From the NCBI GenBank assembly GCA_913057845.1, contig CAJXPC010000090.1:1-7053 (forward strand): a stretch of 7,053 nt of DNA, in the 5' to 3' direction. Below the pieces are notes generated by a model. It had not been told where the DNA came from and did no database searches. It was given only the letters and a program-made list of their open reading frames with translations. Both the position numbers and the translations under genes were made by a program. Shown here in pieces: positions 1-7,053 of the stretch; position 1 is the stretch's first letter; each line of letters begins with the position of its first letter. Origin of the DNA: an uncultured Pseudomonadota bacterium (GTDB lineage: Bacteria > Pseudomonadota > Gammaproteobacteria > Burkholderiales > Eutrophovitaceae).

Positions 1-26
1 CAGCGTCAGATGTGTATAAGAGACAG
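1..26 (+). other. Untrimmed Nextera read-1 adapter (not genomic)
   Basis: The first 26 bases equal the 3' end of the Illumina Nextera read-1 transposase adapter. Positions 8-26 are the 19-base Tn5 mosaic end AGATGTGTATAAGAGACAG. Position 27 is therefore the first base that can be genomic. This is library-preparation sequence, not a transposon carried by the organism. Confidence 0.97.
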
Positions 27-2883: not shown

Positions 2884-3252
2884 ATGATAGCTGAATATTT
2901 CCCAATTTTATTGTTTATCGTTGTCGGTGTTACCGTGGGATTAGTGTTGCCCTTAACTGGAGCTGTGCTCAGTCGGGCTCTCCGTTCTCATAATCCAGAT
3001 GCGGCTAAATTAACCGCCTACGAGTGTGGTTTTGATGCATTCGAGGATGCTCGAACAAAGTTTGATGTTAGATATTATCTTGTGGCTATTTTATTCATTA
3101 TTTTTGATCTTGAGATTGCATTCTTGTTCCCTTGGGCGGTTGCGCTCGACCAGATTGGTTTAACTGGTTTTGTCGCTATGATGATTTTTCTTACTTTGTT
3201 GGTCGTGGGGTTTATTTACGAATGGAAAAAAGGAGCCCTAGATTGGGATTAG
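2884..3252 (+). CDS. nuoA: NADH-quinone oxidoreductase subunit A (NuoA)
   Basis: NuoA is a small membrane subunit of respiratory complex I (NDH-1), located where the membrane arm meets the quinone-binding module. The 122-residue protein has three predicted membrane helices at about 5-30, 64-88 and 93-113. The conserved loop [12 protein letters not shown] (42-53) contains the Cys48 region that reports active/deactive state in complex I, followed by [20 protein letters not shown] with the conserved acidic residues Asp75 and Glu77 in the membrane. The C-terminal KKGALDWD motif is also typical. A GGAG Shine-Dalgarno sequence at 2873-2876, seven bases before the ATG, supports the start. It is the first gene of the nuo operon; nuoB begins 12 bases after its stop. 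Confidence 0.98.
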
Positions 3253-3264
3253 GTTGCAGCGAAT

Positions 3265-3741
3265 ATGATTATTGAGGAAATTCAAGAGAAGGGTTTTGTA
3301 ACAACGAGCGTTGATGCGGTCGTCAATTGGACGCGTACCGGGTCGCTGTGGCCGATGACTTTTGGCTTGGCTTGTTGTGCTGTTGAAATGATGCATGCCG
3401 GTGCCGCTCGCTATGATTTGGACCGGTTTGGTATCGTCTTTCGACCGAGCCCTCGGCAATCTGACCTGATGATTGTGGCGGGAACGCTGTGTAACAAGAT
3501 GGCTCCGGCTCTTCGGAGGGTATACGACCAAATGGCCGAGCCGCGATGGGTTATTTCTATGGGATCCTGTGCAAATGGTGGCGGGTATTATCACTATTCG
3601 TATTCGGTCGTGCGTGGATGCGACCGTATTGTTCCTGTTGACGTTTATGTTCCAGGATGCCCACCTACAGCTGAGGCGTTGCTCTACGGTATTGTGCAGC
3701 TTCAAAATAAGATTAAAAGGACAAATACGATTGCGCGTTAA
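3265..3741 (+). CDS. nuoB: NADH-quinone oxidoreductase subunit B (NuoB)
   Basis: NuoB (PSST/20-kDa homologue) carries the terminal iron-sulfur cluster N2, which hands electrons to quinone at the junction of the peripheral and membrane arms. The 158-residue protein shows all four N2 ligands: adjacent Cys37 and Cys38 in [10 protein letters not shown], Cys102 in GSCANGGG, and Cys132 in [14 protein letters not shown]. Other conserved runs are [20 protein letters not shown] and [15 protein letters not shown], and the end [14 protein letters not shown] is much like betaproteobacterial NuoB as I remember it. Length is normal. The Shine-Dalgarno sequence is weak (AGG about 11 bases upstream), so translation may be coupled to nuoA, 12 bases away. 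Confidence 0.98.
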
Positions 3742-3770
3742 ATAGCGCGGTAGACTGGCTTAGGGGTTAA

Positions 3771-4367
3771 GTGAATCAAGTGCATCAAATTTTGGTAGAG
3801 AGGTTAAAGTCTAATCTGGAGCTAACAGGGGACGCTGTTCGTTATGAGCTTGGCGAAGTGACGCTTACGTTGGCGGCATTGGACCTGCCTGCGAGCATGA
3901 TCTTATTGAGGGATACTCCAGATTTGAAATTCAATCAACTTGTGGATGTCTGTGGTGTGGACTACAGAGATTACCCATCGAAAGATCGATGTTCTAGCAG
4001 GTTCGCAGTTGTTTATCATTTGTTATCCATTGATTTGAATCATCGTGTGCGGGTGCGGGTTTTTTGCGATGACGATGAGCAGCCTGCAGTTTCTTCAGTA
4101 GTCGACATTTGGCCTGGCGCTAATTGGTTTGAGCGTGAGGCATTTGATCTTTTTGGTATCGTTTTTGATGGCCATCCCGACCTGAGGAGACTCTTAACTG
4201 ATTACGGTTTTGTAGGGCATCCACTTAGGAAAGATTTCCCTTTATCAGGTCATGTTGAGGTGCGTTATGATCCGATAGAAAAACGAGTGGTTTACCAGCC
4301 TGTGACGATTGAGCCTCGGGAGATTGTCCCGCGAGTTATACGAGAGGACTCTTATGGCGATGTTTAG
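3771..4367 (+). CDS. nuoC: NADH-quinone oxidoreductase subunit C (NuoC)
   Basis: NuoC (30-kDa subunit homologue) is part of the hydrophilic connecting module of complex I and packs against NuoD and NuoB; it binds no cofactor. The 198-residue protein carries the family signature at 121-161: an [20 protein letters not shown] run, then [20 protein letters not shown]. The start is a GTG with AGGGG (3762-3766) four bases upstream. A second in-frame GTG at 3780 is possible but would be 13 bases from that site. The gap from nuoB is 29 bases and to the preferred nuoD start 38 bases. nuoC is a separate gene, unlike the fused nuoCD of enterobacteria and Pseudomonas, which fits a betaproteobacterium or a gammaproteobacterium outside those groups. 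Confidence 0.96.
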
Positions 4368-4405
4368 TGGGATGGTGTGGCGTCGATGTGAAAAGAGATT
4401 GCTAC

Positions 4406-5659
4406 ATGGCTGAAATTAAAAATTACACAATGAATTTTGGTCCGCAGCACCCAGCCGCGCACGGAGTGTTACGTCTGGTGCTCGAGCTTGACGGGGAGGT
4501 GATTGAACGCATTGATCCCCATATTGGGTTACTTCACCGTGGAACCGAAAAGTTAGCAGAACATAAAACGTTCTTGCAGTCGGTCCCATATATGGATCGA
4601 TTGGATTACGTGTCAATGATGTGTAATGAGCATGCTTACGTCATGGCAATCGAAAAATTGCTCGGCGTGGATGTGCCTATCCGAGCGCAATATATTCGTG
4701 TCATGTTTGATGAAATTACTCGGATATTAAATCACTTATTATGGCTAGGTGCGCATGCGTTGGATGTCGGGGCCATGACAGTGTTCCTCTATTGTTTTCG
4801 CGAGCGTGAGGACTTAATGGATTGTTACGAAGCGGTATCGGGCGCGCGTCTGCATTCGGCCTATTACCGACCCGGCGGTGTTTATCGAGATTTGCCAGAT
4901 GTTATGCCTCAATACGAAGCGTCTAAGTTTCGTAATCAAAAGGAAATCAATAAACTGAACGAAAATCGACAAGGATCGTTACTTGATTTTATTGAGTACT
5001 TTACGAGCCATTTCCCTAGCAAGGTGGATGAATATGAAACCTTGTTAACTGATAACCGTATCTGGAAGCAGCGGACCGTGGACATTGGTGTGGTGACGCC
5101 GGAAAGGGCTGCCGCATTAGGGTTTACTGGGCCTATGCTTCGGGGTTCGGGCATTGCTTGGGACTTGCGAAAAAAACAACCTTACGATGCTTATGATTTG
5201 GTTGATTTTGATGTTCCTGTGGGCACTAACGGGGACTGTTACGACCGATATTTAGTGCGTGTTGAAGAGATGCGTCAGTCGAACCACATCATCAAACAAT
5301 GTATTGGCTGGCTGAGAAAAAACCCAGGGCCAATTATTACGAAAAATACTAAAGTTGCCCCACCTTCACGTGAAGATATGAAGGTGAATATGGAAGATCT
5401 TATCCATCACTTCAAGTTGTTCACAGAAGGGATGCATGTCCCGGCTGGTGAGGCTTACTGTGCCGTCGAAGCGCCAAAGGGGGAGTTTGGAATTTATTTA
5501 GTCTCGGATGGGGCCAATAAGCCCTACCGGTTAAAGATAAGAGCGCCAGGATTCGCGCATTTATCGGCAATAGATGAAATGACCAGGGGGCATATGATCG
5601 CTGATCTTGTAGCCATAATTGGTACTCAGGATGTTGTGTTTGGAGAGATTGATCGATGA
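4406..5659 (+). CDS. nuoD: NADH-quinone oxidoreductase subunit D (NuoD)
   Basis: NuoD (49-kDa homologue) forms, with NuoB, the quinone-reduction pocket of complex I. From the ATG at 4406 it is 417 residues, the usual bacterial length, starting [20 protein letters not shown]. An in-frame GTG at 4367 would add 13 residues not expected in the family; AGAG eight bases before 4406 supports the ATG. His19 in GPQHPAAHG and Tyr68 in [12 protein letters not shown] correspond to the quinone-contacting His59 and Tyr108 of the bovine protein, with the same 49-residue spacing. Later conserved runs include MRGSGI-like [12 protein letters not shown] and, at the end, [14 protein letters not shown]. The TGA overlaps the nuoE ATG by four bases (ATGA), implying coupled translation. 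Confidence 0.97.
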
Positions 5660-6150
5660 GTGGAGTCAGACTATTGAGTGTAGAGGCTTATGGGGCAATT
5701 GATAAAGAGATCGCGAAGTATCCTGTGGATCGAAAGTCCTCCGCAGTTATGGCGGCTTTAGCGATAGCGCAAAATGAATTAGGTTGGGTTTCCGAATCCG
5801 TTGTGGCAGATGTCGCGGAGTACCTAGAGATGCGTGCTATAGCGGTATGGGAAGTGGCAACGTTTTATGGCATGTACAACTTGAATAAACCTGGGCGTTT
5901 TAAATTAGCGATTTGCACCAACTTACCTTGTGCGTTGCAGGGTGCCAATCAAACGGTGGATCAATTGAAAGCAGCCCTTGGTATTAACTTCAATGAGACA
6001 ACCTCGGATGGCTCCGTAACCTTAAAAGAGGCGGAATGCATGGGAGCCTGTGGAGATGCGCCGGTAGTCATTATTAATGATCGCGAGATGCGCGGTAAAG
6101 TAAGCGTTGGAGACGTTGATGGATTAGTAGAGGAGTTAAAAGCGCGATGA
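5656..6150 (+). CDS. nuoE: NADH-quinone oxidoreductase subunit E (NuoE)
   Basis: NuoE (24-kDa homologue) belongs to the NADH-dehydrogenase module and holds the [2Fe-2S] cluster N1a close to the FMN of NuoF. The 164-residue protein has a thioredoxin-like C-terminal domain with the four cluster cysteines in the usual spacing: Cys87 and Cys92 (CTNLPC), Cys128 and Cys132 (ECMGAC). The helical N-terminal half includes [16 protein letters not shown] and [12 protein letters not shown], both typical. GGAGAG at 5642-5647, eight bases before the ATG, supports the start. The gene overlaps nuoD and nuoF by four bases at each end. The sequence resembles betaproteobacterial NuoE more than E. coli NuoE, judged from memory. 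Confidence 0.97.
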
Positions 6151-7032
6151 TTACATCAAATCCTCCATTCCCAACCACTAGTTATGGCCCGGATGCCTCG
6201 ATTATGAAGGGTATTGACGGTCTGAACTGGAACCTTGCGGATTATGTTAAGAGGGGTGGGTATCAAGCGCTTCGAAAAATTCTTAAGGAAGGGGTCTCAC
6301 CCTCGGATGTGATCGCGGAAGTAAAGAATTCGGCGCTCAGAGGTAGAGGCGGAGCTGGATTCCCCACGGGGCTTAAGTGGAGTTTTATGCCCAAAGGAGA
6401 GGGGCAAAAGTATGTGATTTGCAATTCTGATGAGGGAGAGCCTGGCACATTTAAAGATCGTGATCTCCTCAGATATAACCCACATGTCGTGATTGAGGGT
6501 ATGGCCATTGCTGCTTATGCCATAGGGGCTACTGTGGGATACAACTACATCCACGGGGAAATTTGGGAAGTTTATGAGCGGTTTGAGAAAGCGCTAGACG
6601 AGGCAAGGGCGGCAGGATATTTGGGTAAAGAGATTTTGGGGTCACAGTTCGCGTTTGATCTGCATGCGCATCATGGGTTCGGTGCTTATATATGTGGCGA
6701 AGAAACAGCCCTTCTAGAAAGCATTGAAGGTAAAAAGGGTCAGCCAAGATTAAAACCTCCTTTTCCAGCTTTAATAGGATTATATGGATGTCCAACAATA
6801 ATTAATAACGTGGAAACTATAGCTGTTATTCCAACGATTTTGAGAAAAGGTGGCAAATGGTTTGCTTCATTAGGTAAAGCAAAAAATACAGGAACTAAAA
6901 TATTTTGTATATCTGGAAATGTTAATAAACCATGTAACGTTGAAGAAGAAATGAGTATATCTCTTAAAGAATTAATCGAAGTTCATGCTGGTGGAGTAAT
7001 TGGTGGATGGGAAAATTTACAAGCTGTTATAC
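6147..7032 (+). CDS. nuoF: NADH-quinone oxidoreductase subunit F (NuoF), 3'-truncated and probably chimeric
   Basis: NuoF (51-kDa homologue) binds NADH and FMN and normally a [4Fe-4S] cluster (N3), starting electron flow in complex I. The frame opens at an ATG overlapping the nuoE stop (ATGA), with GAGGAG at 6130-6135, and stays open to the contig end: about 295 of the usual 420-440 residues. Visible are the FMN/NADH glycine-rich loop [11 protein letters not shown] (65-75), [15 protein letters not shown] (92-106) and [13 protein letters not shown] (179-191). The C-terminal cluster-binding domain is missing. Residues 1 to about 190 are beta/gamma type; residues about 200-295 are alphaproteobacterial/mitochondrial type (GCPT-INNVET, then KPC-VEEEMS) with strongly A/T-ending codons. 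The final codons run into adapter, so the apparent tail after Ile295-Pro is false. Treat only about 6147-6700 as belonging to the upstream genome. Confidence 0.9.
6747..7032 (+). other. AT-rich nuoF segment, apparently from a different (alphaproteobacterial) genome
   Basis: From codon 201 to 295 of the nuoF frame only about 10 of 95 codons end in G or C, compared with about 49 of 100 for codons 50-150 (hand counts). The encoded residues follow the alphaproteobacterial/mitochondrial NuoF pattern: [32 protein letters not shown] and GGW-NL-AVIP. The upstream part follows the beta/gamma pattern. An AT-rich alphaproteobacterium such as a SAR11-like organism is a reasonable guess for the source. 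The exact breakpoint cannot be placed because the region around 6681-6770 is conserved in both types. Confidence 0.8.
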
Positions 7033-7053
7033 CTGTCTCTTATACACATCTCC
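7033..7053 (-). other. Untrimmed Nextera read-2 adapter (not genomic)
   Basis: The last 21 bases are the reverse complement of the inner end of the Nextera read-2 adapter: the 19-base mosaic end CTGTCTCTTATACACATCT followed by CC. Together with the read-1 adapter at the other end, this shows that the contig is bounded by tagmentation sites, and that genomic sequence stops at 7032. Confidence 0.97.

Follow-up and report, generated by a model that had tools for sequence, protein, structure and literature searches.

Excerpts of the GUNC paper (PMC8201837) describe misassembly into chimeric contigs as a relatively rare error in MAGs, and they state that estimates based on markers detect non-redundant contamination with lower sensitivity. 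The window analysed here, a DNA stretch of 7,053 nucleotides that is contig C90 of its assembly, resembled such contigs in that two source genomes were found in one contig together with a low marker-based contamination. It was unlike them in that just 332 alien bases were present, within one gene, nuoF, at the contig end. The locus was also compared with the two kinds of NuoF that it combined. As in Burkholderiales-type NuoF, the nuoF head and the piece on another contig of the same assembly, C227, each matched NuoF families, and nuoG and nuoH lay downstream on C227. However, the window copy switched lineage at 6684-6700 and was then truncated by adapter. In the case of SAR11 (Pelagibacteraceae) NuoF, window positions 6701-7031 were identical to L022, from a Candidatus Pelagibacter MAG, at 312 of 331 sites (94% DNA). 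In contrast to SAR11 NuoF, the window contained a middle gene piece alone, with none of the remaining SAR11 operon.

Results

The native nuo operon and the head of nuoF

The assembly comprised 1,866,622 bases in 309 contigs, with a completeness of 86.84 and a contamination of 0.05. C90 contained the end of pstA, then pstB, tpiA, secG, a tRNA-Leu gene, nuoA-E and nuoF. The adapters, nuoA-E and all parts of nuoF were on the forward strand. The native genes nuoA, nuoB, nuoC, nuoD and nuoE (2884..6150) were assigned using NCBIfam matches and congener DNA. nuoB, nuoC, nuoD and nuoE gave matches above an NCBIfam cut-off, and the best match of nuoA was 128.5 bits, below the family cut-off of 163. The whole stretch was a single continuous match in all eight congeners, with 73-94% DNA identity. 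At the left end of the contig (1-523), an adapter remnant cut into a partial pstA, and an annotated protein beginning there could include adapter-derived residues.

The nuoF frame was open over its full length (6147-7032), up to the adapter. Its 5' part (6147..6683) was native, as indicated by congener DNA identity and the protein tree. It was identical to L006, the nearest congener found, at 506 of 537 positions (94% DNA), compared to 259 of 501 for the SAR11 locus L022 in the gapped codon alignment. The head matched the NuoF family, and in the protein tree the window clustered with the eight congeners at a support of 100/100. We called this part Burkholderiales-type because those of its best protein relatives that carried an organism name were Burkholderiales or Betaproteobacteria; the closest relatives of all, at 94%, were not among the named ones.

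The lineage switch within nuoF

The base composition of nuoF changed along the gene. GC at third codon positions (GC3) was 0.475 in the 179 codons of 6147-6683, compared to 0.129 in the 116 codons of 6684-7031. This agreed with a sequence-only reading of the window, in which third-position G/C was said to fall from about half to about one tenth. Seven other genes of the window (pstB, tpiA and nuoA-E) had GC3 values of 0.377-0.487. When stretches of 110 codons were taken from these genes and the nuoF head, the lowest value was 0.309, compared to 0.127 for the tail. L022 had a GC3 of 0.155 over the stretch equal to the tail.

The alien piece (6701..7032) was assigned to SAR11 nuoF based on DNA, protein and tree. 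It was 332 bases long and was terminated by adapter. Its identity to the congener L006 was 197 of 325 over 6701-7031. L124, from the same SAR11 group as L022, was 94% identical to the tail, and identities over 80 SAR11 loci were 79-94%. The tail protein matched named Pelagibacteraceae proteins, the best being that of L022 with 98% over 91 aa. In the protein tree of the tail, the window clustered with 10 SAR11 rows, representing 10 of the 80 loci, at a support of 100/100. SAR11 bacteria are marine, and Pelagibacteraceae is an alphaproteobacterial family. This agreed with the proposed switch from a beta/gamma-type to an alpha-type protein, the head being Burkholderiales-type and the tail SAR11.

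Of 297 SAR11 family genomes, a selection from a larger group, 253 matched the tail. No donor strain emerged from these 297 genomes, the best identity among the matches listed being 94%. A 6.3 kb SAR11 locus was used as a query against the window's own genome and gave three matches. The only SAR11-like one was the window tail at 94%, and the other two were native C227 at 67-70%. No further SAR11 contamination of the bin was found with this one locus.

The alien tail had its closest protein match in P0121, at 98%. It had 431 aa and came from a contig of 1498 bases. A nucleotidyl transferase domain at 6-135 was followed by NuoF domains, so that P0121 itself looked chimeric. The changeover was near the peptide IDEAY, which was also present in SAR11 NuoF. 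P0121 may be another artefact join.

Location of the join

Sites that separated the two lineages were defined in the codon alignment as those where no base was common to the eight congeners (plus C227 from 6684) and the 80 SAR11 loci. The window was native at 87 of 88 such sites up to 6683, the exception being 6531. Past 6700, it was SAR11 at all 42 sites. None of these sites fell within 6684-6700. The contig thus contained two lineages with a sharp switch between them, as in an inter-species chimeric contig.

The join interval (6684..6700) consisted of 17 bases shared by the window and C227 and was not assignable base by base. When L006 and C227 were compared with L022, the last separating base before the shared stretch, 6683, was native and the first one after it, 6701, was SAR11. 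The sequence-only reading had put the join at 6681-6770. The location was right and the interval too wide, since 6701-6770 was already SAR11 at the DNA level, with 67 of 70 bases identical to L022 compared to 49 of 70 for L006. This confined the join to 6684-6700. At 6698, the window had the native C, whereas L022 had T. Because this C was found in just 3 of 91 SAR11 loci, 6699-6700 is the most likely position of the switch.

The switch was located inside sequence common to both sources, which was 17 bases long with C227 and 14-17 bases with close SAR11 loci. At the join, native and SAR11 sequence matched perfectly over 14 bases (6684-6697) when either of the two closest SAR11 genomes found was compared; the best of 91 SAR11 loci gave 17 bases. 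C was present at 6680 in 4 of the 91 loci. Given a donor with C at both 6680 and 6698, the overlap with the true donor could reach 21 bases (6680-6700).

The join had also been described as in frame, without insertion or deletion. The frame was open and the tail showed no indel relative to L022, which supported the description. Compared to the native gene, the tail had two extra residues, near its end. In the L022 row of the codon alignment, a stop sat upstream of the nuoF start.

The native continuation on C227

The native 3' part of nuoF was not absent from the genome. It was found on C227, a contig of 3448 bases in the same assembly. Positions 1-42 of C227 were Nextera adapter and index, which we take to be of the i7 side. 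Past the adapter lay the native 3' part of nuoF, followed by nuoG and the beginning of nuoH, each matched by its family. The first base behind the adapter corresponded to window position 6684. The first 17 post-adapter bases were identical to window 6684-6700 (17/17), and divergence followed. In the tail region, C227 was identical to L006 at 313 of 325 positions (96%), which was in line with the identity of the window head to this congener. C227 was also placed with the congeners in the tail protein tree. The true continuation of the gene was thus present elsewhere in the window's own assembly. On C90, the chimera stands in for this native continuation, at the place where the native assembly breaks.

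In all eight congeners, nuoF crossed the join point as one uninterrupted frame with a native tail, and the chimeric nuoF was carried by none of the eight, as judged from the tails in the codon alignment. A nuoF search covered 41 genomes (the window's own, the eight congeners and 32 more distant ones) and gave matches in 39; the tails were compared in the eight congeners. Of 8000 proteins scored, the best 120 had identities to the query of no more than 81%. Neither native DNA behind the chimera nor a copy of it in another genome was observed, as adapter followed in the window and 0 of 8 congeners carried it. A literature search on this nuoF locus gave nothing among the matches listed.

Adapters and contig ends

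The left end of C90 was a Nextera adapter remnant (1..26), identified by sequence and presumably of the i5 side. The alien piece and the contig were closed by Nextera read-through adapter (7033..7053), identified by sequence and script trim, which we assume to be of the i7 side. The 19-base adapter core occurred 382 times in the 309 contigs (618 ends), and a reversed control gave 0 occurrences. In the first 100 places listed, forward copies began at most 32 bases from the contig start. Each of the 19 readable contigs that were examined had a full or partial adapter at one end at least. Wherever the remnant in the contigs read was long enough to show an index, a single i7 and a single i5 index appeared throughout. 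Since copies of the adapter core were this abundant in the contigs, the assembly entry seems to have been built from untrimmed reads.

GC content at contig ends was measured in 37 terminal stretches of 300 bases from 19 contigs (C227, C84, the window and others), one end of C1 being left out. The right end of C90 had the lowest value, 0.323, and the next was 0.360. However, inner 300-base stretches in two other contigs of the assembly had GC down to 0.317, and low GC alone was therefore not diagnostic of alien DNA.

A low-GC end was also seen in C140 (L114, 3512-5388), with 0.373 in the last 300 bases and with transposase and bacterial globin families. The 800 bases at this end had no match in the eight congeners. 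The end of C140 may be a natural island or another join. A second low-GC end, that of C40, brought no telling result.

Discussion

The hybrid nuoF is almost certainly an artefact of one kind or another, because C227 holds the probable real continuation of the gene, starting exactly at the join. The sequence-only reading had proposed that two community members were joined by template switching or by an assembly error, and this agrees with the native 3' part on C227, the SAR11 tail and the lack of the chimera in the congeners.

As to the specific route, PCR template switching during library making is probable. During library PCR, a native strand left incomplete would have annealed to SAR11 DNA at the short conserved stretch and acted as a primer. 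Native fragments would not have spanned 6684, and the assembler would have extended along the chimeric fragment until it met the adapter at 7033, leaving the true continuation as the separate contig C227. A single PCR-chimeric fragment, with native sequence on its left side and SAR11 sequence as far as 7033, would cover the short alien piece, the adapter end and the join within the shared stretch. The length of 332 bases fits one library fragment, and a match of 14-17 bases is short for k-mer assembly and sufficient for a PCR primer end. The start of C227 at the join is compatible with any artefact route and does not single out PCR.

A misjoin made by the assembler alone, with no chimeric molecule, is a rather unlikely route but the foremost alternative, with several observations on its side. 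A low-k graph or overlap step would have linked native and SAR11 reads through 6680-6700. The native assembly breaks here, with C227 beginning behind an adapter, and the adapters were left untrimmed. The diverse SAR11 strains, as seen in the spread of the 80 loci, may fragment in assembly. An assembler with k=21 might bridge the overlap if it reaches 21 bases. However, the perfect matches found at the join, 14 bases with the closest genomes and 17 at best, are below the common minimum k values of assemblers, which speaks against this route, not decisively. Chimera formation during multiple displacement (whole-genome) amplification before the library, which would apply to a low-input or single-cell source, appears highly improbable. 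Such chimeras are reported for the method in the excerpt of PMC5745018 that bears on it, but no result of this analysis points to such amplification.

Natural recombination, in which SAR11 DNA replaced the 3' part of nuoF in the cell, was rejected after checks of the window's own genome and the eight congeners, and we regard it as scarcely credible. The open frame and the exact register within a conserved stretch would also be expected from homologous recombination. However, the same assembly contains the native 3' part, which begins at the join, none of the eight congeners has the chimera, and adapter rather than native DNA closes the alien piece. The earlier view that the adapter-bounded ends make recombination the less likely origin was therefore upheld, with adapters at 1-26 and from 7033 and the native 3' part on C227. 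That a minority of the Burkholderiales-type population carries a NuoF with an in-frame, SAR11-replaced 3' part, produced by natural recombination across bacterial classes, beside the normal gene of C227, is likewise scarcely credible.

We see no new kind of object here. The contamination of the genome is listed as 0.05, yet one of its genes combines a native part with a part from another class. A hybrid gene together with leftover library adapters means that genes at such contig ends are unfit as evidence of gene transfer. As an artefact, the hybrid is useful for quality control and carries no weight for biology, and the chimeric protein is not expected in any cell.
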